Assembly (NCBI GenBank): GCA_026981985.1 | Contig: JALSHZ010000115.1 | Span: 1 to 47,984 of the forward strand | DNA from: Gammaproteobacteria bacterium | Lineage (GTDB): Bacteria; Pseudomonadota; Gammaproteobacteria; UWMA-0217 | Direction: 5' to 3' | DNA length: 47,984 nucleotides | In this document: piece by piece, positions 34,654-47,984 of the stretch | Numbering within the stretch: the first letter of the stretch is position 1 | Layout of the letters: each line of letters opens with the position of its first letter | Translations under genes and position numbers: made by a program | Notes under the pieces: generated by a model | What the model was told of the DNA's origin: nothing | Databases searched by the model: none | Seen by the model: the letters and a program-made list of their open reading frames with translations, nothing else

Positions 34654-35112
34654 ATGGCAAGCAGAGGCGTCAACAAGGTTATTCTGGTCGGCAATCTGGG
34701 CAAGGACCCTGAAACCCGCTATATGCCCAGCGGCGGAGCGGTAACCAATATCACGGTTGCAACATCCGAGACCTGGAAAGATAAAGCAACCGGGCAACCA
34801 CAGGAGCGTACCGAATGGCACCGTGTTGTGTTCTTCAATCGCCTGGCGGAAATTGCCGGTGAGTATTTGAAGAAGGGCTCCAAGGTCTACATCGAGGGCA
34901 GTCTACGCACGCGCAAGTGGCAGGGTCAGGATGGTCAGGATCGCTATACCACCGAGATCGTCGCCAATGAGATGCAGATGCTCGACAGTCGTAGCGGCGG
35001 TAGTACGGGGGGATACGAGGAGCCGCCCATGCCGACGGAAGCTCCCCAGGTCGCCAGTAAGCCTGCGGCCCAGCCGGTGAAGGACGATTTCGAGGACGAC
35101 ATTCCTTTCTGA
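34654..35112 (+). CDS. ssb: Single-stranded DNA-binding protein
   Basis: SSB coats single-stranded DNA in replication, recombination and repair and recruits partners through its tail. The 152-residue product has the OB fold over the first about 110 residues ([47 protein letters not shown]). It continues with a Pro/Gly/Ala linker and ends with the acidic tip DFEDDIPF that binds partner proteins. It is a full-length essential SSB rather than a phage fragment. A TAGAAT at 34611-34616 might be its -10; the -35 is poor. Confidence 0.97.
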
Positions 35113-35315: not shown

Positions 35316-36197
35316 ATGAGCAAGCGTAAAGGCATTATCCTCGCGGGTGGCTCCGGCACCCGTCTGTACCCCCTTACCATCTCGGTCAGCAAGCAGCTGA
35401 TGCCGGTCTACGACAAGCCGATGATCTACTATCCGCTGACCACGCTGATGCTGGCCGGTATCAAGGATATCTTGCTGATCACCACGCCCCAGGATGCGGC
35501 TGCGTTCGAGCATTTGCTGGGTGACGGTTCGCAGTGGGGAATCAATTTGCAGTATGCGGTTCAGCCCAGCCCGGATGGCCTGGCGCAGGCGTTTCTGATT
35601 GGTGAAGAATTCATTGGCGATAGCCCGGTCACGCTGATTCTGGGTGACAATATTTTTTATGGTGAAGGGTTTTCACTGCGACTTCAGGGCATTGGTCGCC
35701 GCGATACCGGCGCGACCGTGTTTGGCTACTATGTCCATGATCCGGAGCGCTACGGTGTGGTCGATTTCGATGAGAGCGGAACCGCGACCAGCATTGAGGA
35801 AAAACCCGAACATCCCAAGTCCAACTACGCTGTAACCGGGCTCTATTTCTATGACAATGACGTGGTCGACATTGCCCGTAATGTAAAGCCGTCGCTGCGG
35901 GGTGAACTGGAGATCACCGACGTCAACAAGGTCTACCTCGAACGTGGCGACCTGGCGGTGATGCGCATGAGTCGCGGTACTGCCTGGCTGGATACCGGCA
36001 CCACGCAGTCATTGCTCGATGCCGCCAATTTCATCCGCGTCATCGAGGAGCGGCAGGGATTGAAGATCGCCTGCCCGGAGGAGATTGCCTGGCGACAGGG
36101 TTTCATCGACGATGAGCAGCTGGAAAAGATCGCGCAGCCATTGAAGAAGAGCGGCTATGGTGCCTATCTGCTGGCGATGCTCGACAAGCGGTACTAG
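35316..36197 (+). CDS. rmlA: Glucose-1-phosphate thymidylyltransferase
   Basis: RmlA makes dTDP-glucose from glucose-1-phosphate and dTTP, the first step of dTDP-rhamnose synthesis. The 293-residue product has the nucleotidyltransferase start [16 protein letters not shown] (about 6-21), then [25 protein letters not shown] with the magnesium-binding Asp, IEEKP, and a C-terminal [13 protein letters not shown]. Length and motifs are those of the homotetrameric RmlA family. It begins the plus-strand sugar-nucleotide set; rmlD starts two bases after its stop. Confidence 0.97.
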
Positions 36198-36199
36198 TC

Positions 36200-37069
36200 A
36201 TGACAAGCATTCTCGTCACAGGAGCCAATGGGCAGTTGGGTCAGGAGCTGCAACGGGCGGTACCGCAAGGCGTGGCGCTGATCGCGCTGGGGCGGCAGGA
36301 GCTGGATATTGCCGACGCTTCGGCCGTTAGTCGCAAGGTCGCGGAAGTTCGACCGGACTGGATCATCAACGCTGCTGCCTATACAGCCGTTGACAAGGCG
36401 GAGTCGGATGAGGAAATGGCCATGGCCATCAATGTCACTGGCGCTGAAAATCTGGCCAGCGCCGCGCTTGAATTCGGTGCGCGACTGGCGCATGTGTCCA
36501 CTGACTTCGTTTTCGATGGCTGCAAGAGCCGTCCTTACCAGCCGGACGATGCGATGAACCCGGCTGGCGTTTATGGTGAGACGAAACAAAAGGGGGAGCA
36601 GGCGGTCAGAGAAGTGATGGGCGACGACGCATTGATCGTGCGGACCGCCTGGGTCTACTCCGCGCATGGCAACAATTTCGTCAAGACAATGCTGCGTTTG
36701 ATGAGCGAGCGCGAGGAACTCGGCGTTATCGAAGACCAGGTGGGTACGCCGACCTGGGCGGCCGAGCTGGCCAAGGTGCTCTATCTCGCCATCGACAAGT
36801 CACTGGCAGGCACCTACCACTGGACCGATACCGGGGTGGCGAGCTGGTATGATTTTGCTGTGGCGATTCATGAACTTGGGCGTTCGATGGGGTTGCTGCC
36901 GCGTGATGTGACAATCAACCCAATATCCACCGAAGCATATCCGACCCCGGCTGCGAGACCGGCGTACAGTGTGCTGAGCAAGGAAGCAATGCGTCAGGCT
37001 ACCGGCTACACCGGCATGCACTGGCGTGCGGCACTGAACAATATGATGAAGGAACTTGAAAATGGCTAA
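36200..37069 (+). CDS. rmlD: dTDP-4-dehydrorhamnose reductase
   Basis: RmlD reduces dTDP-4-keto-rhamnose to dTDP-L-rhamnose with NAD(P)H, the last step of the pathway. The 289-residue product is an SDR protein with the nucleotide-binding GANGQLGQEL near 8-17, AAYTAVDKAE (about 58-67), STDFVFDG and the catalytic YGETKQKGE (Y and K four apart). GTPTWA and the C-terminal RPAYSVLS are also family marks. It follows rmlA after two bases and overlaps rmlB by eight bases. Confidence 0.96.
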   Translation: MTSILVTGANGQLGQELQRAVPQGVALIALGRQELDIADASAVSRKVAEVRPDWIINAAAYTAVDKAESDEEMAMAINVTGAENLASAALEFGARLAHVSTDFVFDGCKSRPYQPDDAMNPAGVYGETKQKGEQAVREVMGDDALIVRTAWVYSAHGNNFVKTMLRLMSEREELGVIEDQVGTPTWAAELAKVLYLAIDKSLAGTYHWTDTGVASWYDFAVAIHELGRSMGLLPRDVTINPISTEAYPTPAARPAYSVLSKEAMRQATGYTGMHWRAALNNMMKELENG

Positions 37070-38177
37070 TCTATTAGTGACCGGCGCCGCCGGTTTTATC
37101 GGGGCGAATTTTGTTTACTACTGGCTTGATACCTATCCCGGCGACCGGGTGATTGGTTTGGACGCACTCACCTATGCCGGCAACCACGAAAGTATTCGCT
37201 CGGCGGAAAGCAATCCGGCCTTTCGCTTCGTGCATGGGGATATTCGTGATCAGGCGCTGATCGAAAAGCTGCTGCGCGAGGAAAAGATCGACACCATCGT
37301 CCATTTTGCCGCCGAAAGCCATGTCGATCGCTCCATCAGCGGCCCCGACGCTTTCATCGATACCAATATCGGCGGCACGCACTCGATGCTGAAAGCCGCG
37401 CGTGCCGTGTGGCTGGATGGGCCGGAGGGGCGTTTGCCTCACCGTTTTCACCACGTATCCACGGATGAAGTCTATGGCACGCTGGGCCCGAACGATCCGC
37501 CGTTCACCGAATCCACGCCCTATGCGCCAAACTCACCTTATTCTGCCAGTAAGGCGGCATCGGACCATCTGGTCAGGGCTTACCACCATACCTACGGTCT
37601 GGAAGTAACGACCAGCAACTGCTCCAACAATTACGGTCCCTATCAGTTTCCGGAAAAGCTGATTCCGCTGGTGCTGATCAACATTCTGCATGGCAAGGCG
37701 CTTCCCATCTACGGCGACGGCAAGCAGATACGCGACTGGCTGTACGTGGATGATCATGCCCGCGGCATCGACCTGATCATCAAGAAAGGCCGGCTCGGTG
37801 AGACTTACAACATCGGTGGTCACAACGAATGGACCAATATCGACATCGTCAACCTCATCTGCAAGTTGATGGATGAGCGCTTTGCTGCCGATCTGCAGAT
37901 GAAAGAAAAATACCCCGATGCGCCTGCTGCACGTGGGGAGAAGGCTAACTCGTTGATCACCTACGTCAAAGACCGCCCCGGTCACGATCAGCGTTATGCG
38001 ATCGATGCGGCGAAGACGACAGCAGAGCTGGCCTACAAGCCCGTGGAAAGTTTTGAAACCGGTATCGATAAGACAATATCCTGGTATCTCGACAATGAAG
38101 GCTGGTGGCAGCGAATCCTCGACGGCAGCTACCAGGAATGGATTGATCAGCAGTATGCCGATCGGAAAGCAAGTTGA
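37062..38177 (+). CDS. rmlB: dTDP-glucose 4,6-dehydratase
   Basis: RmlB converts dTDP-glucose to dTDP-4-keto-6-deoxyglucose, an intermediate for rhamnose and other deoxysugars. The 371-residue product has the Rossmann motif GAAGFIG (8-14), HFAAESHVDRSI, STDEVYG with the conserved Asp-Glu pair, the catalytic YSASKAASDH, and NNYGPYQFPEKLIPL, all typical of the family. The ATG at 37062 overlaps the rmlD end by eight bases, with AAGGAAC as ribosome binding site; an in-frame TTG two codons earlier is less likely. No rmlC lies next to it. Confidence 0.97.
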   Translation: MANLLVTGAAGFIGANFVYYWLDTYPGDRVIGLDALTYAGNHESIRSAESNPAFRFVHGDIRDQALIEKLLREEKIDTIVHFAAESHVDRSISGPDAFIDTNIGGTHSMLKAARAVWLDGPEGRLPHRFHHVSTDEVYGTLGPNDPPFTESTPYAPNSPYSASKAASDHLVRAYHHTYGLEVTTSNCSNNYGPYQFPEKLIPLVLINILHGKALPIYGDGKQIRDWLYVDDHARGIDLIIKKGRLGETYNIGGHNEWTNIDIVNLICKLMDERFAADLQMKEKYPDAPAARGEKANSLITYVKDRPGHDQRYAIDAAKTTAELAYKPVESFETGIDKTISWYLDNEGWWQRILDGSYQEWIDQQYADRKAS

Positions 38178-38257
38178 GATTGGTTTGTCGGCGGCCGATG
38201 CCGGCGAGTATCGTTAAATAGTAAGAAGGGTTAGTTAGTGTTTTTTTGGGAGACAAT

Positions 38258-39646
38258 ATGAAAGTTACAATTTACGGTTCCGGCTATGTGGGGTTGGTGA
38301 CAGGCGCCTGTCTGGCGGATGTGGGCAACAAGGTACTTTGTGTCGATGTCGACGAAGAGAAAATCGCCAAGCTAAAGCAGGGCATTCTGCCCATCTACGA
38401 GCCTGGGCTTGATGGCGTCGTGGAAGACGCGATGAAGCGCGGCAATCTTGATTTCACGACCGATATGGATCGGGCGGTCAATCACGGCGAAGTACAGTTC
38501 ATTGCCGTCGGTACACCGCCGGACGAGGATGGTTCTGCCGATCTGCAGTACGTGCTGGCGGTGGCTGAGACAATCGGTCAGCGGATGACATCGCCAAAGG
38601 TCGTGGTGGATAAGTCAACCGTCCCTGTGGGTACAGCCGACAAGGTAAGGGCGAAGATCTCGGCGTGTCTGAACGAGCGAGGTGAGAAGTTGGACTTCCA
38701 CGTCGTATCCAACCCGGAGTTCCTGAAAGAGGGCGCGGCGCTGGATGATTTCAAGCGGCCTGACAGAATCGTGGTTGGGGTCGATAGCGACCATGCTACC
38801 AGCGTGATGCGGGAACTGTATGCACCATTCAACCGCAATCACGACAAGCTGATCGTCATGGACATCCGCTCCGCCGAGCTGACGAAATATGCTGCCAACG
38901 CCATGTTGGCCACCAAGATCAGCTTCATGAATGAGATTTCCCAGCTGGCTGAAAAACTGGGCGCGGATATCGAGGCCGTTCGTATTGGCATCGGCTCCGA
39001 TCCACGGATTGGTTACCAGTTCATCTATCCGGGCTGTGGCTACGGTGGCTCCTGTTTCCCAAAAGATGTGAAGGCGCTGGAGCGTACCGCCAGGGAAGTT
39101 GGTTTTGACGCACAGTTGTTGTCGGCGGTTGAGGCGAGGAACAACGATCAGAAGCATATTCTGTATCGCAAGCTCGATCGTCACTTCGATGGTGACCTCA
39201 AGGGCAAGACCATTGCCGTCTGGGGGCTGGCCTTCAAACCGAACACCGATGATATGCGTGATGCGCCTTCCAGGGTGCTGATGGAGGCGCTGTGGGAATC
39301 TGGTGCGAGCGTCCGCGCCTATGACCCTGAGGCCATGAATGAGACCCGCCGAATCTATGGCGAGCGCGATGACCTGGCGTTGGTTGATGAGCCCTATGCA
39401 GCGCTCGATGGGGCTGATGCACTGGTCGTCTGCACCGAATGGAAGATTTTCTGGAGCCCGGATTTCGAAGGGATCAAGCGGCGCCTTAGCAGCCCCGTCA
39501 TTGTTGATGGCCGCAACATCTACGACCTCGATCGCATGCGCCAGCATGGTTTCTCCTACTATGCTGTCGGGCGTGAACATGTCGAAGGCGAGGCCTCGTC
39601 AGCGGACAATGGCGTCGTGCAGCTGAAGGTTGGCGGTGCGAGGTAG
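38258..39646 (+). CDS. ugd: UDP-glucose 6-dehydrogenase
   Basis: This enzyme oxidises UDP-glucose to UDP-glucuronate in two NAD-dependent steps. The 462-residue product has the N-terminal NAD-binding [10 protein letters not shown] (7-16) and the middle dimerisation domain (about 200-300). The catalytic cysteine is C266 in [13 protein letters not shown], and the C-terminal UDP-binding domain contains [17 protein letters not shown]. The related GDP-mannose dehydrogenase is less likely given this match, but the substrate is inferred from the family. ATG at 38258 follows GGGAGA. It is 80 bases after rmlB, so probably in the same unit, and converges with the SDR gene. Confidence 0.95.
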
Positions 39647-39664: not shown

Positions 39665-40528
39665 TTAGTCAGCCCGAACGAGATCTGCTCGTTCGGGCCT
39701 GAAAGGGCGCGGGGAGTAGTTGAAATCCCGTATGGCGTCACCGCTGTCGAAGACCAGATCCTGCTGGGTTCTGTCGGCCATCGAAGGCAGCAGGTGCCTG
39801 TATTGGGGGAGCAGCGCCGCCATTCGTATCGCGGTTCGGGCGACCGGTAGCGGTATATACACAGTACGCTGTTTGCGTCCCAATGCCTCAAATAGACGCG
39901 TGACCATTTCCCGGTAGCTGATCACATCCCCTCCACACAAGGCGTAAAGCGCGTTCTCTGTAGTCTGCTGTGTCAGGCACGCCAGCGCGGCATTGGCAAG
40001 GTCGGCGGCATGTACCGGGCTGCGTTTGCCGCATGCCTCCCCGAATAGCGGGAAGAAGCGGTAACGTTCGATGAAGCCTGCAATCACCGCAACATTCTTG
40101 TCCAATCCTGCACCATAGACCATTGTCGGGCGCAGAATCGTCCAGCCAATACCATGTTTCTCAGCGTAGTCTCGCAGCAGCGTCTCACCCAGACGTAGCA
40201 TTTCTGCCGTCTTGCGCTCTGCCGGGTCAGGAGAATCGATCTTGGAGACCGCGCTTGTCGAGCTGAAAGCGATGATTCTGCCGGGTGCAGAGTCGGATTC
40301 ATGAAGCATCTTGCCCAATACCCATATCGGCGCCAGGCTGATCAGCGTTTCATTGCCTGTAAACGTCAACGGGTTCCTGGAGATATCGTGCTGCATCCAG
40401 CTGATGCCCGGAGAGCCGGCCCCTTCATTCCTGCTCACCGCGGTGACCTGATACCCCTTGTCTGCCAGGGCGGGTAACAGGAAATGTCCGATCAAGCTGG
40501 TCGCGCCGAGTACAGTGACCACCGTCAT
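39665..40528 (-). CDS. Atypical SDR / NAD-dependent epimerase-like protein
   Basis: The 287-residue product has a Rossmann start TVVTVLGATSLIGHF with the glycine pattern GxxxxxG and later TILRPTMVYG, which marks an extended SDR fold. At the place of the catalytic YxxxK it reads PAERKTAE, so the Tyr is Pro and only the Lys is kept; it may bind a nucleotide without SDR chemistry. Similar proteins occur beside rhamnosyltransferase genes in surface polysaccharide loci, but I know no proven role. Its ATG overlaps the upstream GT2 stop in ATGA (40525-40528), so it is the last gene of the minus-strand operon. Confidence 0.85.
   Translation of the reverse strand: MTVVTVLGATSLIGHFLLPALADKGYQVTAVSRNEGAGSPGISWMQHDISRNPLTFTGNETLISLAPIWVLGKMLHESDSAPGRIIAFSSTSAVSKIDSPDPAERKTAEMLRLGETLLRDYAEKHGIGWTILRPTMVYGAGLDKNVAVIAGFIERYRFFPLFGEACGKRSPVHAADLANAALACLTQQTTENALYALCGGDVISYREMVTRLFEALGRKQRTVYIPLPVARTAIRMAALLPQYRHLLPSMADRTQQDLVFDSGDAIRDFNYSPRPFRPERADLVRAD
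39672..39698. terminator. Hairpin between convergent ugd and the SDR gene
   Basis: GCCCGAACGAG (39672-39682) pairs perfectly with CTCGTTCGGGC (39688-39698), loop ATCTG. It lies in the last codons of the SDR gene and just past the ugd stop. There is no T run on either side, so it would stop transcription only weakly or protect 3' ends. Confidence 0.45.
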
Positions 40529-41406
40529 CTGCGAAGACTCTGCAGTAACCATACTGGCGTCAGCAGAAAGAAACGGGCCCAAATTGCAGCGTAAACCCCA
40601 TACATCAGAATGCGCGGATATTGATCGGTGTAGAACTTCCGATAGTAGCGCGCCATACCCTTGTGCTTGTGCCATTCAACCCGCACCCGGCGATTATGGC
40701 TGCTGCCTCCTTTGGCATGGGTAATGGACACATGCGGCAAGAACATCACCTTCCAGCCTTTCAACCAGAACCGCTTGCACCAGTCCAGATCTTCACAATG
40801 TAGGAAGTAACCCTCATCCAGTGGTCCTACGTCTTCGAGCGCCTCGCGCCGCACAAGCATGCAAGCACCGGAGATGGCGTCGACCTCGACCGGGCCAGCA
40901 GGCAGCGGTTTACCCACCTTGTTGATGCCCTTTTCGCGGTTGCCTACCAGTGTTTTGAGTGCCGCGAGAGGTGTGGGTTCGTCGCGGCGGCACGCGCGCT
41001 GCTCGGAGCCGTCTTGGTTGAGAATCAGTGGGCCGGCCATTCCGGTTTGTGGATCGGATGACATGAATGTCAGCAGTTTTCTTACTGCATCGCCGGAAAT
41101 CAATGTGTCGGGGTTGATAAATAGTGCATACGATGCCGAAAGAAAATGTATTGCTCGATTGTTTCCAGCGGAAAAGCCAATGTTTGCAGCATTTCTTACA
41201 AGAACGACCCGTGCGTTTTGCTTAGCAATTGACTGGAGTTCCTCCAGGCTCCCATCGTTTGATCCATTATCGGCAACAATGATCTGGTTGATGTCGTCAA
41301 GGGCGATGGCCGAGTTGATGCAGTCGAGTATCTTGTGTCCACCGTTGAAGTTGACGATTACAATATCAAGGCACTGGTCGCTACGATTTTGATTTGTCGG
41401 TTTCAC
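40525..41406 (-). CDS. GT2 family glycosyltransferase (rhamnosyltransferase-like)
   Basis: The 293-residue product is a GT-A fold GT2 enzyme: DIVIVNFNGG (14-23), VADNGSNDGSL, NIGFSAGNNRAI, the Asp motif INPDT (97-101), DAISGACMLVRR and the acceptor-side FLHCEDLDWCKR (201-212). The pattern is that of the WbbL-type rhamnosyltransferases that add one sugar to a lipid carrier or chain. The rmlABD genes nearby make rhamnose a plausible donor, but this is inferred. It uses a GTG start at 41406 with GAGG ahead. Near the C-terminus there is a hydrophobic segment (about 270-289), possibly membrane-attached. Confidence 0.88.
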   Translation of the reverse strand: MKPTNQNRSDQCLDIVIVNFNGGHKILDCINSAIALDDINQIIVADNGSNDGSLEELQSIAKQNARVVLVRNAANIGFSAGNNRAIHFLSASYALFINPDTLISGDAVRKLLTFMSSDPQTGMAGPLILNQDGSEQRACRRDEPTPLAALKTLVGNREKGINKVGKPLPAGPVEVDAISGACMLVRREALEDVGPLDEGYFLHCEDLDWCKRFWLKGWKVMFLPHVSITHAKGGSSHNRRVRVEWHKHKGMARYYRKFYTDQYPRILMYGVYAAIWARFFLLTPVWLLQSLRR

Positions 41407-41432: not shown

Positions 41433-42530
41433 CTAACGGTTTGGATTTTTAGACTGCTTTCGCCAGTGGTCAAGGCTTGGTTTTTCGACAAAGTGCCACG
41501 ACAGCATGGCCAGAAAGAGTGTTAATGGGAATGCAGATAAAAAAAGCGTAGTGGTGGGTATGTCTGGTCTGAGAAATACGAGAGACTGCTGAATCGGAAA
41601 TGCGTAGATATATAGCCCATAAGAGTAGTCCCCGAGTTGATTGAATCTTCGGATGAAGCCTGTGGGAATATAAGACAGATAAAGCAGCAAGTAGGGGAGT
41701 GCCAATGAATAAATGAAAAATGATATGTTTCCCGGAGAAGTTGATGAAATAATGACCAGTGCTAGCAGTATAGAAAATAGATGTTTGGATAAGGGGATAT
41801 TTTGACGGTAGATGTAGTATGCCCCTCCCATGAAAAACATGGCAGCAAATCTGATCATATGCGGGAGGTGAGGTCCGGTGATGAGATGGGTGCTGTGGTT
41901 AGCGAAATACACCACCGTAAACAAGACTGCGGTACTCGTGATTGAAACCTTCAGGAATTGGGGGTGAAGTCTTTTGAAAGTCAAAAGCGAAATTATCCCC
42001 AAGAATGTGAGTGCTGCGTACATCGCGACTTCCCATGGAAGTGTCCAGAGTGATCCATTGACTGAGTTTTTTACCGGTAAGTGCTCGAATGTCCCAGGAA
42101 GAGAAAACTGTATTGGCTCAACGACGAGGAGAGAGTTGTGGATAAAGAAGTTGTGGGTGGTGGGGGATTTTAGGTATTCCACCAGTGGTAGTGATGTGAA
42201 CAAGGGACCGATGATATACGCAGAGAAGGCAACAGCAACAATGAGGGCAGGGTAAATGCGAACGATTCTGGAAGTAATAAACGACTTTAGTTCTGATCGT
42301 TTGAGTAGGCTAGCACTAACTAGAAAGCCGCTGGTGACAAAGAATATATCCACTGCAAGGTGGCCAAAAGTAAATCCGGCGAGTACGCTAAGGGGTTCTG
42401 CTGGATTGCCCGTGAGTGGGTAGCTATGGCTTAGTATAACGAGTAATGCCGCAATAAATCGTATGAGGTTGAAGTTGTTGTCGCGCCCTCGCGTAAATGA
42501 GGATAGCCTTGGTATAGATCGGAGTAGCAT
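41433..42530 (-). CDS. Acyltransferase 3 family membrane protein
   Basis: The 365-residue product is an integral membrane acyltransferase of the OafA/Acyl_transf_3 type with about ten hydrophobic segments. The first carries NNFNLIRFIAALLVILSHSYP, broken here as IRFIAALLV and LSHSYP, with the likely catalytic His. Further marks are FFVTSGFLVSASLL, TSRIVRIYPAL and the end YGLYIYAFPIQQ. Such enzymes add acetyl or other acyl groups to O-antigen or capsule sugars. The C-terminus has no added SGNH esterase domain. It starts one base after the upstream stop (TGA-A-ATG). AT content is clearly above that of the ribosomal part. Confidence 0.9.
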   Translation of the reverse strand: MLLRSIPRLSSFTRGRDNNFNLIRFIAALLVILSHSYPLTGNPAEPLSVLAGFTFGHLAVDIFFVTSGFLVSASLLKRSELKSFITSRIVRIYPALIVAVAFSAYIIGPLFTSLPLVEYLKSPTTHNFFIHNSLLVVEPIQFSLPGTFEHLPVKNSVNGSLWTLPWEVAMYAALTFLGIISLLTFKRLHPQFLKVSITSTAVLFTVVYFANHSTHLITGPHLPHMIRFAAMFFMGGAYYIYRQNIPLSKHLFSILLALVIISSTSPGNISFFIYSLALPYLLLYLSYIPTGFIRRFNQLGDYSYGLYIYAFPIQQSLVFLRPDIPTTTLFLSAFPLTLFLAMLSWHFVEKPSLDHWRKQSKNPNR

Positions 42531-42531
42531 T

Positions 42532-45426
42532 TCAGGTCGTTGCAGGACTGTTGAGTTCGCCGTTTTCCATCCGCTCTTTCTGAGAAGAATGTTCGTTGTG
42601 GTGTTTGACTACAGCGTGCTTGTAGGCGTTATCGAGAGCGATCTGGCGTCGAACTCTGTCGCCAATGTCATGGGGTGTGTGGAATAGTGAGGTCGTCTTT
42701 TGAACCCATTTGAATAGACCTAGAGCTGCATATTTTTTCCATAGATCCCAGTCTTCTAAATGATCCATTGATTCGTCAAAGCCGCCGTGCTGTTCGAACA
42801 ACTTGCTCCGAAACAGAATGGACTGAATGGGAATGTAGTTGTGGTGTTTTAATATGTCGAGGCTGAACTCTTGATAGAAAAGACTCGGAGTGCTGTGTGA
42901 AACCTCGTGATAGAAGCCCGTGTTGCCGTCTTTCAGGGTGACCGTTTCAACATCCCAGGCAAGGGAGTAGGCGGCGTTGATGTTTGGTGTCGTGTGAATC
43001 GTGTTGTACAGGGTTTCGATATGATCTGGAAACAACAAGTCATCTTCGTCGAGCAGCAGTAGAAACTCGCCTTTTGCTTTTGACATGCCATGATTTCCGG
43101 CAGCTGAGCGCCCGACTTTGGCAAGAGGGTGGTATGCTAATTTAGCGTTGGGGCGATATTTTTCCGTGACTTCCTCTATAACCTCCTTTTTGGTCGTGCC
43201 ACCGTCTTCTACGATGATGTGCTCAATATTTGGGTACGTTTGATTCATCACTGATGCGATGCACTCTTTCAAGTGGCGTGCATCCGGGCCATGTGTTCTG
43301 GTAATCACGCTGACGAGGGGTAGAGCTCCTTCCAGTGGTTGCAGCTTGAAAAATGCGCCCCCTCTTCTCATTTCATAGTCGAAAGCTCTGAAAGGGAAAA
43401 AGGTATGGCCTCGTGGAGGCCGGCTTCTGAGGAAATATGGGGTATTTCTTGCGAGTGCTAGGATATTTTTGGCAACCATCTTTCGACTACCGGAAAAGCC
43501 TCCACCGCGCACCAGCAATGCGAACTGCAAGGGGAGGATCGCGGCGATATCCGACCAGTTTCCGTAACGCAGGCGCAGGTATGCGTTTGCAAGGGTGGAA
43601 CCGCTGAATTGAATGGGTTTTATTTCCGAAGCAGTCGAATAGGAGTAATGCCAGGCAACGGCGTTGGGAACGTAACGGAGCGAGTAGCCGTGAGCGCGTA
43701 GCCGGTAAGACAGTTCCACGTCTTCGCCATACATGAATATCCGTGGTTCGTAGCCGCCGACGTGTTCATAGGCTGTGCGCCGTATTAGAATGCATGCATG
43801 TGAAGACCAATTAACGTCAAGAGTAACAGGGTCGAGATATTTTGGGTGTTCATAAGGCTTTTGGCGTAGCTCCCACGAGGCTGTGTGAGTGCTGTCGGAC
43901 AAGGCGCGTGCTATCACTTTTTTCAGGGCATCTGGTTCAAGCGTGAGATCAACGTTCGTAATGAGTATGAACGGGTTTTTCCCGGCTGAGATCGCCGTAT
44001 GATGCCCCATTCCAAAGCCAAGATTTGCCTGCCGGATAATGTTGATGCTGGCAAATAGTTTGGCTTGGGATTTCTGGAACGCTTTAAGCAATTCAGGGGT
44101 GTTGTCGCTTGAGTTGTTGTCGACAAATGTGATATCCAGTTTGTTCGCTGGATAGTCAAGTGACAGTAGGCTTTCGAGAAATGCTGGTAACCACTTGGCG
44201 CTGTTGTGCGTGACAATGCTGATGTCGATGGCTGGTAGATCCGATTCTTCAGTAGTATTGGTGAGCCACTGGATATGCTCAGGACTCAATAACACACCCC
44301 CTCGTTGGCTGACGAAGGTGTTGATTGCCGGGCCATTTTGTCTTGAATACGGAAGGTGTCGAAGCACCTGCGTTAATCGTTGGATTCGTGCGTTGATCCA
44401 GAATAGCGGGGGGGCCAGGGGGGTTCCCTTGATGTTCGACTTCAGCCAGAAAGTTGACGCATGTCTGAGGTTGTTGATTCTCGTAAAAAATCTTATGGCT
44501 GGTGTAATGCTGGCTTGTAGGTCCTGGAGGTTCTGTTGAGTGTGGTTGAGTTCTTCTGATGTGCCGTTGAGCATACCGTTGAGCTGAGTAATTTCTTTGT
44601 CACGAGTTTCCAGCTGCTGTTTTAGCCAGCTGATGTCGTGATCTCTGGACTCGACTTGTTGTTTTAGCCAACTGATACCGTCTTCTCTGTCTCGTGTGTC
44701 AATCTGTGCTTTCTCCAGCTCTGCTTCGTACTGGATGGCGCTACCGAGGCGGGAAAACATGGTTTGGGTCACTATTACCTCTTGATCCTTTAGAGAAAAC
44801 AGCTCTATGGCTGCGTCTGGCAGGTCTTTGCCGATGCCGAGGGCGCCGAGGCCACTTGAGTGTGTGAATTCGAACGATGGATATGTGGTTCGAAGTTGCT
44901 GCCACAGTTTCCAAACCCCAAAGCCCCGTTCACGAACCTGAATGTCATGGAGCAGTACGATGCCGTGTTTGCTGAGCTTGGGGAGCCAGGTGTCAAAGTC
45001 ATGCTTGACGGCCTCGTAGGTGTGGAGGCCATCAATGTGCAAGATATCAATACTGGCATCATCGACTTGGGTCAGTGCATCGTCAAACGTTGAGCGGAGC
45101 AGCGTCGAAAAGTCTTGGTAGTTCTGATTGTTGTACTCAAGGACTGCACTGTAAATGGTATCGCCATAGAATCCCGCGTGCTCGTCTCCGCGCCAAGTAT
45201 CTATTGCAATACAGCGACTCGAGATGCCGCTTTCCTCTACAGCTTGGCAAAATGAAAAATATGAGTTTCCAGTGTGTGTTCCCAGCTCGACAATGCTAGA
45301 AGGCTTTAGCTTATTGACTAGCCAGAAAGCAAAGGGAATATGTCCGACCCAGGAGTAGGGGGGAACCAATCTTTTGGGCTGGCTGAGAATGATGTGAGGA
45401 GGGGTGGTGTGAAATATGGTATTCAT
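42532..45426 (-). CDS. Methyltransferase / coiled-coil / double GT2 glycosyltransferase fusion
   Basis: The 964-residue product has four parts. Residues about 30-220 are a class I SAM methyltransferase of the Methyltransf_24 kind (VELGTHTGNS at 46-55, HIDGLHTYEAV at 130-140, LLHD at 158-161). Residues about 230-305 are a charged helical, likely coiled-coil stretch with a 14-residue repeat (ISWLKQQ twice at 251 and 265). A first GT2 domain follows (about 400-640; SIVTHNSA, TNVDL as DxD, YGEDVELSYRLR), then a second (about 703-920; SVITRTHG, LDEDDLLFP as DxD, LEDWDLWKKY). It sits between wzt and the acyltransferase gene. Functions are inferred: chain assembly plus sugar methylation, perhaps chain ending. 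Substrates are unknown. Confidence 0.88.
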   Translation of the reverse strand: MNTIFHTTPPHIILSQPKRLVPPYSWVGHIPFAFWLVNKLKPSSIVELGTHTGNSYFSFCQAVEESGISSRCIAIDTWRGDEHAGFYGDTIYSAVLEYNNQNYQDFSTLLRSTFDDALTQVDDASIDILHIDGLHTYEAVKHDFDTWLPKLSKHGIVLLHDIQVRERGFGVWKLWQQLRTTYPSFEFTHSSGLGALGIGKDLPDAAIELFSLKDQEVIVTQTMFSRLGSAIQYEAELEKAQIDTRDREDGISWLKQQVESRDHDISWLKQQLETRDKEITQLNGMLNGTSEELNHTQQNLQDLQASITPAIRFFTRINNLRHASTFWLKSNIKGTPLAPPLFWINARIQRLTQVLRHLPYSRQNGPAINTFVSQRGGVLLSPEHIQWLTNTTEESDLPAIDISIVTHNSAKWLPAFLESLLSLDYPANKLDITFVDNNSSDNTPELLKAFQKSQAKLFASINIIRQANLGFGMGHHTAISAGKNPFILITNVDLTLEPDALKKVIARALSDSTHTASWELRQKPYEHPKYLDPVTLDVNWSSHACILIRRTAYEHVGGYEPRIFMYGEDVELSYRLRAHGYSLRYVPNAVAWHYSYSTASEIKPIQFSGSTLANAYLRLRYGNWSDIAAILPLQFALLVRGGGFSGSRKMVAKNILALARNTPYFLRSRPPRGHTFFPFRAFDYEMRRGGAFFKLQPLEGALPLVSVITRTHGPDARHLKECIASVMNQTYPNIEHIIVEDGGTTKKEVIEEVTEKYRPNAKLAYHPLAKVGRSAAGNHGMSKAKGEFLLLLDEDDLLFPDHIETLYNTIHTTPNINAAYSLAWDVETVTLKDGNTGFYHEVSHSTPSLFYQEFSLDILKHHNYIPIQSILFRSKLFEQHGGFDESMDHLEDWDLWKKYAALGLFKWVQKTTSLFHTPHDIGDRVRRQIALDNAYKHAVVKHHNEHSSQKERMENGELNSPATT
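44593..44676 (-). repeat. Two 42-bp repeats coding a 14-residue coiled-coil unit
   Basis: Residues 251-264 and 265-278 of the fusion protein repeat as ISWLKQQVESRDHD and ISWLKQQLETRDKE. The preceding TRDREDG and following ITQLNG look like worn copies. The DNA is still close between copies, which points to recent duplication or easy expansion. Fourteen residues equal two heptads, fitting an elongated coiled coil whose length could vary. Confidence 0.8.
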
Positions 45427-45450: not shown

Positions 45451-46803
45451 TCAGAGGGTTGTAAGAGATATTGACTGCATTGGAATCCCTACCAATCCAG
45501 TGGAAAGGCTGGTGGCATGAGATTCGAAAACGATTGCATCGTGTATCCAATGGTGCTGTATGTGGTCTTCCTGTGTTCCTTCAGCAATTGCTACGGAGAC
45601 ACTATAGGGGCCTGAAGGCAATATTGGCATCGAAAATGTAAATTTTGTGAGCAAGGTATCTCCTTCTTTGCAGGCTATCGGGGTCTGTTGACAGGTAAGG
45701 TAGGTGTTGTCCCCAAAAAGAGTCTGACCCAGTTTGTCTTTGACTACGAATCCGACAATCGGGTTGTCTATTGGCTTGTTCAATGCAGAAACGATTTCTA
45801 TCGACACGGATTCTCCGCCAACAGCCCAGGTCAGGGAGGTGTCACTGGCGTCTGTGACTCGTACGTTGGTAATCGTCGCCAGCCCAGTTCCGAAGGACTT
45901 GGCCGGTTCATGAAACCGAAAGATTTCGAGATCGTTCCGCAGGTTGCTGTGTTGAATAAAAGCTGCACGTTGATCTGTCACCGCCTCAATGCACCTCCCG
46001 CTTTCAGGCGACTCTTCCTTCTTCTTGCTCTGGCATGATTGCTTTGTGCCGTCAATTTCCTGCGAGACTTCGTACACGCCTTCGAGATACTGCTCGGTCA
46101 CGTCTTTTGACTCTCCAGATGCTTTGATTCTTCCCTTATCGAGCCAGATGGCTTTAGTACAAAAATTGACAACGGAGCTGGTGTCGTGGCTGACGAACAG
46201 AATGGTGCCGTGTTTTTGGAATTGTCTTAGAAAGCGCATGCATTTCTGGGTAAAGAACACGTCGCCAACGGCAAGTGCTTCGTCAATGACGAGTATGTCG
46301 GCATCGACATGTGCAATGACGGCAAATGCTAATCGGACGAACATGCCGCTCGAATAGGTTTTCACTGGCTGCTCGATAAAGGTGCCTATATCCGCGAAGC
46401 CTACGATGCTATCGTATTTCTGACTGATTTCTTCACGGCTAAGCCCGAGTAGTGCAGCATACATGTAGATGTTGTCATGGCCCGAGAACTCGGGGTTGAA
46501 TCCGGCTCCCAACTCCAGTAGCGCGGCCACACGGCCATTGACCTTGATACTGCCAGATGTAGGTGTAAGTGTTTCGCAGATGATCTGCAATAGCGTGGAC
46601 TTCCCAGCGCCGTTTCTGCCGATGATTCCGACGGTTTCGCCTTCGAGAATGTTGAAGCTAATGTCTTGGAGCGCCCAGAATTCATCGAATAGCTGCCTCT
46701 TGCCCCGTACAAGTCCTTGGAGCAGGCGATGATGGGGTTTGTGATAGATCTCAAAGCATTTACTTATATTTTGTAACGATATGGCGGGAGACTCAGAGGA
46801 CAT
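45451..46803 (-). CDS. wzt: Polysaccharide ABC transporter ATP-binding protein with C-terminal carbohydrate-binding domain
   Basis: Wzt powers export of a finished glycan on its lipid carrier across the inner membrane. The 450-residue product has a nucleotide-binding domain (about 1-240) with Walker A GRNGAGKST (62-70), the signature YSSGM (150-154), Walker B ILVIDE (170-175) and the switch SHD (205-207). After a charged linker come about 150 residues with GDNTYL-type beta-strand sequence, the Wzt C-terminal fold that in O8/O9a systems reads the terminal chain modification. The ATG at 46803 overlaps the wzm end by 11 bases; an in-frame upstream extension would lie wholly in wzm and is not family-like. 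Confidence 0.93.
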   Translation of the reverse strand: MSSESPAISLQNISKCFEIYHKPHHRLLQGLVRGKRQLFDEFWALQDISFNILEGETVGIIGRNGAGKSTLLQIICETLTPTSGSIKVNGRVAALLELGAGFNPEFSGHDNIYMYAALLGLSREEISQKYDSIVGFADIGTFIEQPVKTYSSGMFVRLAFAVIAHVDADILVIDEALAVGDVFFTQKCMRFLRQFQKHGTILFVSHDTSSVVNFCTKAIWLDKGRIKASGESKDVTEQYLEGVYEVSQEIDGTKQSCQSKKKEESPESGRCIEAVTDQRAAFIQHSNLRNDLEIFRFHEPAKSFGTGLATITNVRVTDASDTSLTWAVGGESVSIEIVSALNKPIDNPIVGFVVKDKLGQTLFGDNTYLTCQQTPIACKEGDTLLTKFTFSMPILPSGPYSVSVAIAEGTQEDHIQHHWIHDAIVFESHATSLSTGLVGIPMQSISLTTL

Positions 46804-47581
46804 CGGCAAAACCTCTTCTCGTCTTCTGGAACCATGCGAAGCCCCCCCAAGCGACTGCAATGCTGACCAGAAGGGTCACCAGTAGGCTCGGCCAGTCCGG
46901 CATCTCCCCCCACATCATGACATTCCGCGCTTGCTCGATAATAAATGTCAGAGGGTTGAGGTATAGATAGATCTGGTATTTCTCGGGTATTGCGGAGATT
47001 GGGTAGAAAATTGGCGACATAAATAGCAGGAGAGTGCTGACAATGCCGGTTACTTGACTGATATCACGGAGGTAGACGCCTAGCGATGCCAGAAACCAAG
47101 AGAGCCCAAGGCAGTAGAAAATCAAGGGTAGCAATACGGCTGGCAGGAAAATGATGGTGGCATGAATGGAGTGGTTGACAGTAACAAAAAAGATCAACCA
47201 TACCAGTAGACTAACCAGTGTGTGGAACAGCGTCGATAGCAATGTAACCCAAGAAAGCGTTTCTAAAGGAAAAACGACCTTTTTGACGTAACTGGGGTTA
47301 TTTAGAATTTGATATGGTGCCCGAATAATGCACTCTGAGAGGAGGCCATGGATTATTAGACCTGCGAATAGTGCCAAGGCAAACTCGGTCTTGTTTTCAG
47401 ATCCTGTGCCCCATCGGGTCTTGAAAACGAAGCTGAAAACAAAGGTATATACCGCGAGCAGGATCAAAGGATTGATAAATGACCAGAGCAAGCCGAATAC
47501 CGATCCTTTGTAGCGTCCGGCAATTTCCCGACGTACCAGCTGGCCTATCAGTTCGGAATGCCGTGTGAAACTGCGGAGCAT
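46793..47581 (-). CDS. wzm: Polysaccharide ABC transporter permease
   Basis: Wzm is the ABC-2 type membrane partner of Wzt. The 262-residue product shows about six hydrophobic helices after an amphipathic N-terminal region (LVRREIAGRYKGSVFGLLW), a typical start for the family, and FMSPIFYPISAIPEK near the fifth helix, with LNPLTFIIEQARNV as the following signature. I take the ATG at 47581 because the length and N-terminus then fit Wzm proteins. An in-frame extension up to 47695 exists and has no family support, and the ribosome binding site at the chosen ATG is weak. It is the first gene of the six-gene minus-strand operon. Confidence 0.92.
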   Translation of the reverse strand: MLRSFTRHSELIGQLVRREIAGRYKGSVFGLLWSFINPLILLAVYTFVFSFVFKTRWGTGSENKTEFALALFAGLIIHGLLSECIIRAPYQILNNPSYVKKVVFPLETLSWVTLLSTLFHTLVSLLVWLIFFVTVNHSIHATIIFLPAVLLPLIFYCLGLSWFLASLGVYLRDISQVTGIVSTLLLFMSPIFYPISAIPEKYQIYLYLNPLTFIIEQARNVMMWGEMPDWPSLLVTLLVSIAVAWGGFAWFQKTRRGFADVL

Positions 47582-47984
47582 TTCGATGGCTGTGATGGGG
47601 AAGCGGGTGCTAGCGTTCAAGAATCCGATTCTCTTCGCAATGGGGGCAAGGACATCTGTGGGCAGGCCCCACTTCGGGTGATGGCAAAGTGCCATGGCCT
47701 CGCCTGTTGATCCATAAGCGCCCTAGGTTACCATTGGACACCGTGCTTTTCCATTGTGTTCTCGACGCGGGGTTGTCCCGGATCCGGATAAGTGATCGTC
47801 TGAAGGTGAGCAAAGATGGCTCCATTGAATGGATCATGTAACTTCTGAAGTATGTTGCAGGGAGCGAAGTCTACGGTAAGCAGATCTAAGGGATCAAATG
47901 ATCCGGTACAAGGATTTCAATGAGGGGCGTTAAGTATTCATGCGTCTGGATGGAAGGTACGATGTGGTTTTGTGCCGTCCCTAG
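47582..47984. other. Gene-free end region with likely wzm promoter
   Basis: About 400 bases hold no convincing gene. It should contain the promoter of the minus-strand operon, but I find no clear -35/-10 pair and no ops/JUMPstart element (GGCGGTAG) on that strand. An inverted repeat GGATCA-AA-TGATCC lies at 47891-47904. A short plus-strand frame opens with ATG at 47930 behind AAGGAT and is still open at the window end after 18 codons; it could be the start of a divergent gene, but the evidence is weak. Confidence 0.5.

Follow-up and report, generated by a model that had tools for sequence, protein, structure and literature searches.

A putative single-chain polysaccharide polymerase-terminator with a kinase-free methyltransferase head, encoded beside a CBD-bearing Wzt

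How long many bacterial surface glycans grow, and whether they may be exported, depends on a cap whose identity is seldom known. In a gammaproteobacterial genome (GCA_026981985.1, contig JALSHZ010000115.1), a single gene next to wzt encodes a methyltransferase, a coiled coil and two glycosyltransferase (GT) domains, raising the question of whether one protein could both build a surface polysaccharide and end it, and with which cap. The whole stretch of DNA analysed, 47,984 nucleotides long, is referred to here as the window, and its features are listed in Table 1. We think it likely that the protein is a single-chain polymerase-terminator for a surface polysaccharide that depends on an ABC transporter and is most likely an O antigen, and that its coil-held methyltransferase adds a plain O-methyl cap that is read by Wzt.

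Table 1. Features of the window, with positions counted from its first nucleotide and residue numbers referring to the 964-aa protein unless stated otherwise
Feature	Position	Strand	Basis or remark
964-aa protein: methyltransferase head, coiled coil and two GT2 domains	42532..45426	(-)	ORF, Pfam, AlphaFold2
Methyltransf_24 domain, residues about 29-199	44830..45342	(-)	Pfam, model, Foldseek, alignment
Coiled-coil helix, residues 245-303 (59 residues, about 9 nm)	44518..44694	(-)	AlphaFold2; heptad a/d RILVRILLRILLTLTLLI
Two 14-residue coil repeats, residues 251-264 and 265-278	44593..44676	(-)	28/42 bases identical
Linker from coil to first GT, residues 304-396	44239..44517	(-)	Counterpart of the S-x-SW-R/K-x-T-x-PLR segment of relatives
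First GT2 (GT-A) domain, residues 397-640; NVD 491-493, ED 568-569	43507..44238	(-)	Pfam, AlphaFold2
Second GT2 (GT-A) domain, residues 702-920; DEDD 793-796, ED 891-892	42667..43323	(-)	Pfam, AlphaFold2
wzt: ABC ATPase and C-terminal carbohydrate-binding domain (CBD)	45451..46803	(-)	Start probably ATG at 46803
Wzt_C cap-binding domain	45487..45900	(-)	Best solved match A. aeolicus Wzt CBD
W438 of Wzt	45547-45549	(-)	Aligned with methyl-stacking Trp362 of A. aeolicus
wzm: ABC-2 permease	46793..47695	(-)	Pfam
Acyl_transf_3 membrane acyltransferase	41433..42530	(-)	Pfam; adjoins the core in many relatives too
Single GT2, candidate adapter or initiating transferase	40525..41406	(-)	Pfam
rmlA, rmlD, rmlB and UDP-glucose dehydrogenase	35316..39646	(+)	Pfam

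The gene starts at an ATG and forms a single uninterrupted frame. The four segments that an earlier note had read from this frame were recovered by Pfam and AlphaFold2: Methyltransf_24 (Pfam residues 46-162, E 1e-27), a heptad helix and two GT2 domains (about 400-598 and 707-837, E 1.4e-36 for the two stretches together). The full-length AlphaFold2 prediction, made from a 42-row alignment, had a mean pLDDT of 86.9 and comprised a methyltransferase fold, the coil helix and two GT-A domains, the latter mostly above 90; pLDDT was below 50 across residues 285-338, one residue excepted. All domains of the protein are intact and their catalytic motifs are in place.

The minus strand reads, in order, wzm, wzt with its CBD, the 964-aa gene (24 bp downstream of wzt), and genes for the Acyl_transf_3 protein, a GT2 and an epimerase-like protein. 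The ORF-tool list starts wzt at a TTG at 46860. The locus may be cut because the contig stops at 47984. As listed, the epimerase-like ORF (39665-40675) and the GT2 ORF share ~150 bases, and the true start of the former is probably further in. No Rfam elements were found within 33-48 kb. The rmlA/rmlD/rmlB block lies away from rmlC, two copies of which are present elsewhere in the genome, so dTDP-L-rhamnose can be made; the gene at 34654 was ruled out as rmlC, as it encodes SSB. Across the family, rml genes were found near the core relatives in 22 of 80 loci (within fetched flanks), a link that supports rhamnose as the sugar but does not prove it.

Relatives were collected by scanning ~85,000 species genomes; 221 relatives were confirmed and 80 of these kept for family analysis. 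Sampling of a further 369 genomes of the class and 398 of the phylum added just three loci, the window's own aside, and the analysis therefore rests on the 80. When relatives were searched for the same domain order, the whole architecture was present in six (L002, L003, L004, L007, L027 and L041), indicating that the fusion is not an assembly artefact. Many more relatives share the GT2-GT2 core alone, mostly at 40-50% identity, under another N-terminal head: Methyltransf_11, Methyltransf_12, Methyltransf_23, sulfotransferase-like, hexapeptide plus GT99/Capsule_synth, PIG-L, GT2, or deacetylase plus GT2. Some are headless. The methyltransferase heads across the 80 loci are of four unrelated types, and no sequence similarity was found between heads of different classes. 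An apparent natural head/core split in L041 coincides with a run of unknown bases and was not taken as one. Several other arrangements were seen. Five Pseudomonas loci (L017, L018, L023, L025 and L015) have a hexapeptide (acyltransferase-like) and a GT99/Kdo-transferase-like domain fused ahead of the coil, possibly giving a two-step cap. An apparent membrane acyltransferase is fused N-terminal to the GT core in a Rickettsiaceae MAG (L068:238-3048), and the GT cores of L034:5212-8940 and L056:5731-9240 are extended at the C terminus by 324 and 539 residues, respectively.

The window head carries a SAM motif (E47-LGTHTGNS) and the motifs HID132G and HD161, and gave a mean pLDDT of 85 when modelled alone. 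The best PDB folds found by Foldseek were the cation-dependent O-methyltransferases SafC, MeT1 of Mycobacterium hassiacum and COMT-like enzymes, and a profile of eight heads returned MeT1 as the sole sensible sequence match in the PDB (E 2e-4). MeT1 (6g7d/6g80) is a saccharide O-methyltransferase acting on 1-OH (PMC9883506); it resembles the window head in fold, but methylates the reducing-end 1-OH of methylmannosides and is only 14-15% identical. The SAM motif is kept, and so are both aspartates in all relatives except L007, where the head is degenerate. In this Variovorax locus (L007:5824-8760), ~30 residues are lost, HIDGLH has become HIGRLH and the HD motif is gone; the GT core looks intact, making the locus a natural null for capping.

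We compared the cap-reading domains of the transporters. A CBD on Wzt marks capped-chain export, and the A. aeolicus CBD was crystallised with 3-O-methyl-mannose (PMC9445017). The window CBD matched that of A. aeolicus with E 6e-11, versus 0.002 for E. coli O9a, and the CBDs tested from Methyltransf_11- and Methyltransf_23-headed (MT11 and MT23) loci also had A. aeolicus as best match. Among 31 CBDs compared, with L004 set aside, an Aquifex-type best match was obtained for 15 of 16 methyl-headed loci; methyl-headed L037 was a near tie with the O9a score slightly higher, and the other methyl-headed CBDs also scored against O9a, more weakly. For the GT99-like locus L017, the best match was 5hno (E 7e-18), which we take to be the O12 Kdo-cap CBD. 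O12-type CBDs were found in four of five GT99-like loci and O9a-type CBDs in both fused O7-type loci, L011 and L044. The best match of these last two was 2r5o (E 2e-21 and 9e-17, respectively), the E. coli O9a CBD (PMC6286764), which serves a methylphosphate cap. The heads of L011 and L044 carry the six SAM-site residues published for Klebsiella pneumoniae O7 ORF6, which was compared through those residues only, at constant offsets of +1 and -6, suggesting that they are very probably O7-type methyltransferase-kinases.

With L004 set aside, all 16 CBDs that accompany kinase-free methyltransferase heads keep equivalents of Aquifex Trp362 and Ala348. Arg occupies the Trp362 site in O7-type, sulfotransferase-type and O9a CBDs, and Trp is also found in four near-identical GT99-like-headed Pseudomonas loci. 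Under the cap code considered below, this single position would help to show whether the cap is a methyl ether, as with Trp, or anionic, as with Arg. The likeness to the A. aeolicus Wzm-Wzt, which exports a 3-O-methyl-capped O antigen, covers the CBD reader only.

These data also bear on whether the head, like those of O7 and O9a, could make a methylphosphate cap by means of a kinase that went unrecognised. O7 ORF6 shows that a kinase domain can be missed in annotation (PMC11231755), but the AlphaFold2 model of the window protein has no unassigned folded segment of ~220 residues: the methyltransferase fold stops at residue 197-199 and nothing but short helices lies between it and the coil. Moreover, the DRRYDS motif common to O9a and fused O7-type CBDs is absent from the Aquifex-like window CBD. 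We consider a hidden kinase highly improbable.

Is the match between head and CBD general? In the 28 loci that combine a head with a CBD-bearing Wzt, the similarity of the CBDs tracked head class (partial Mantel r = 0.33, p = 2e-4, corrected for Wzt ATPase (NBD) and core similarity). CBDs from loci with the mutually unrelated MT24, MT11 and MT23 heads resembled one another at 0.46 of self-score, versus 0.07 for methyl/non-methyl pairs, and this trio ranked first among 84 head-class trios. The cores of these loci were no closer (0.458 vs 0.485). The methyl-head label changes 7-8 times on the core tree and twice on the CBD tree. L041 and L011 have cores that are 79% identical, unrelated heads and CBDs with 25% identity; for L041 and the window, identity is 47% between cores, 59% between heads and 51% between CBDs. 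Judged by these identities, the L041/L011 pair is a natural swap of head and CBD on close polymerases. Three Campylobacterales loci (L048, L054 and L058) were first picked by their methyl-type CBD alone, and a separate MT23-type gene was found afterwards between wzt and the headless core. The ATPase domain of Wzt is also somewhat closer among methyl-headed loci (0.66 vs 0.53), so part of the CBD link can be put down to the neighbouring domain. The chief departure from the pairing is L004/L022. L004 has the same head type as the window and an unrelated CBD; L004:3823-5076 and L022:2075-3331 have related cores and share one distinct CBD type, the head being a methyltransferase in one and PIG-L in the other. 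Further exceptions are L015 and L055. Sulfotransferase-type heads (L005, L014 and L020) often lie beside a short Wzt without CBD, unlike methyltransferase heads.

The head-CBD pairing and the conserved methyl pocket suggest that the chain end in the window is most likely a simple O-methyl ether that Wzt recognises. The resemblance to MeT1 could point elsewhere, to a methyltransferase that decorates in-chain sugars or each repeat, with the coil a mere tether and length set by transporter/polymerase stoichiometry. The Methyltransf_24 fold is generic, MeT1 does not act on a chain terminus, and the window coil is relatively short, all of which would fit. We nevertheless regard in-chain methylation as unlikely, given a Wzt whose methyl-cap-type CBD covaries with methyltransferase heads; the described Klebsiella non-terminator systems (O1/O2) use a Wzt without CBD (PMC11231755). 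More broadly, we lean slightly towards a modular writer-reader cap code, in which one GT2-GT2 core is combined with many unrelated cap-writing heads, each with a matching Wzt CBD. The CBD is encoded by the 3' end of the upstream gene and the head by the 5' end of the next, which places writer and reader side by side as a single exchangeable cassette of DNA. Such a pairing was not found described in our literature search, outside which most subscription papers lay; recombination of a transport-extension-termination operon has been noted in P. syringae (PMC12608077).

A terminal methyltransferase could act on chains of a set length if the coil held it at a distance. A second helix (residues 214-239) precedes the coil helix in the model, and the a/d positions over residues 245-308 read R-I-L-V-R-I-L-L-R-I-L-L-T-L-T-L-L-I, a heptad pattern equalled by none of 20,000 segment shuffles. 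The length of the coil in Table 1 was calculated at 0.15 nm per residue. That the coil is built from repeats, as the earlier note had it, held in part: two 14-residue copies, ISWLKQQVESRDHD and ISWLKQQLETRDKE, are clear (10/14 residues shared), but the third is a poor match (17/42 bases), and no DNA array within the window coil was reported by Tandem Repeats Finder. The S-x-SW-R/K-x-T-x-PLR segment of relatives is degenerate in the window linker, which may have a membrane or anchor role.

The window coil is short compared with some relatives' coils. The closest relative (L027:5995-9004, 53%) has a 53-residue (159-bp) tandem duplication in its coil and hence a longer rod; its frame is broken by a frameshift in the first GT domain, reflecting an assembly error or a pseudogene. 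In-frame DNA tandem repeats were also seen in the coils of L020 (residues 271-440, 96 bp x5.3), L080 (residues 324-491, 168 bp x3) and L011 (residues 565-600, 42 bp x2.6), and the period was a multiple of 21 bp, one heptad, in 10 of 16 such arrays. Such arrays could serve to adjust the length of a ruler. The great variation in coil length among close relatives, the L027 duplication included, could alternatively mean that the protein is a terminator-polymerase whose coil is an oligomerisation and membrane-scaffold element and no ruler, and the coil of WbdD does stabilise the neighbouring catalytic domain (PMC3482155). However, tuning of a ruler would yield length variation too, and coil length is an established ruler of the chain in E. 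coli O9a and Klebsiella O12 (PMC11231755). We hold the scaffold possible but rather doubtful, and favour a coil that measures.

The nearest solved structure to the GT core is the bifunctional chondroitin polymerase K4CP of E. coli K4 (2z86; Foldseek E 2e-26), which is likewise a tandem GT-A pair and a copolymerase. Unlike the window protein, K4CP is without head, coil or terminator and uses UDP-sugar donors, and the two share 16% identity.

In the single-chain polymerase-terminator that we propose, the two C-terminal GT2 domains would work at the membrane, taking turns to extend a lipid-linked chain at its non-reducing end with sugar, probably rhamnose from dTDP-L-rhamnose. The coiled coil, which is probably oligomeric, would keep the N-terminal methyltransferase at a distance, such that methylation may reach only chains that are long enough. 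Growth would then be stopped by a phosphate-free O-methyl ether, presumably on the terminal sugar, and the CBD of the adjacent Wzt would read the methyl group and license export via Wzm-Wzt. If head and CBD type predict the cap, the termini of uncharacterised O antigens could be read from the genome; polymerase, ruler and cap would become treatable as exchangeable modules. Close polymerases that carry unlike heads, each with its own matching CBD, constitute a natural experiment that makes this prediction directly testable.

Fusion of terminator, coil and polymerase in one chain has been shown experimentally for K. pneumoniae O7 ORF6 and O12 WbbB (PMC11231755). The window protein resembles this class in having a predicted capping enzyme N-terminal to an extended coil, polymerase GT modules C-terminal of the coil in the same chain, and an adjoining Wzm/Wzt with a C-terminal CBD. 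The wzt/CBD pairing, the family comparison and the cap-pocket residues give good, if indirect, support to the earlier supposition that polymerase and chain-ending enzyme are joined here with the coil between them. E. coli O8/O9a WbdD is likewise a methyltransferase terminator on a coiled-coil ruler with a CBD-type Wzt, and in O8 it is also kinase-free. WbdD has no GT in its chain, whereas two GT2 domains are fused in the window protein; O8/O9a instead recruit to WbdD a separate multi-GT polymerase, WbdA, whose GTs belong to another family. As previously read, the window modules are GT2 with a GT-A fold, in contrast to the GT4 (GT-B) of WbdA. WbbB of R. terrigena and K. pneumoniae O12 shares a terminator head, a coil, two polymerase GTs and a CBD-type Wzt, but has a GT99 beta-Kdo transferase head and GT102/GT103 modules, where Pfam gives only Methyltransf_24 and GT2 for the window protein. 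Closest in layout is O7 ORF6 (PMC11231755), with an N-terminal methyltransferase terminator, a central coil and two C-terminal GT2 modules, in a locus that also has wzm/wzt and rml genes. ORF6, whose GT2s are rhamnosyltransferases, differs in its kinase and internal CBM, its methylphosphate cap and its GT motif order (DXDD first and NXD second, versus NVD first and DEDD second in the window). The window head belongs to Methyltransf_24 and is kinase-free with no additional domain, versus the residues Y28/Y66/G91/G93/E112/Y158 plus kinase of ORF6. A methyltransferase fused through a coil to a pair of GT2 modules is already present in O7, so the layout has been seen before. The novelty lies in a GT2-GT2 core that bears a kinase-free Methyltransf_24 head, and in the exchange, across the family, of heads together with matched CBDs.
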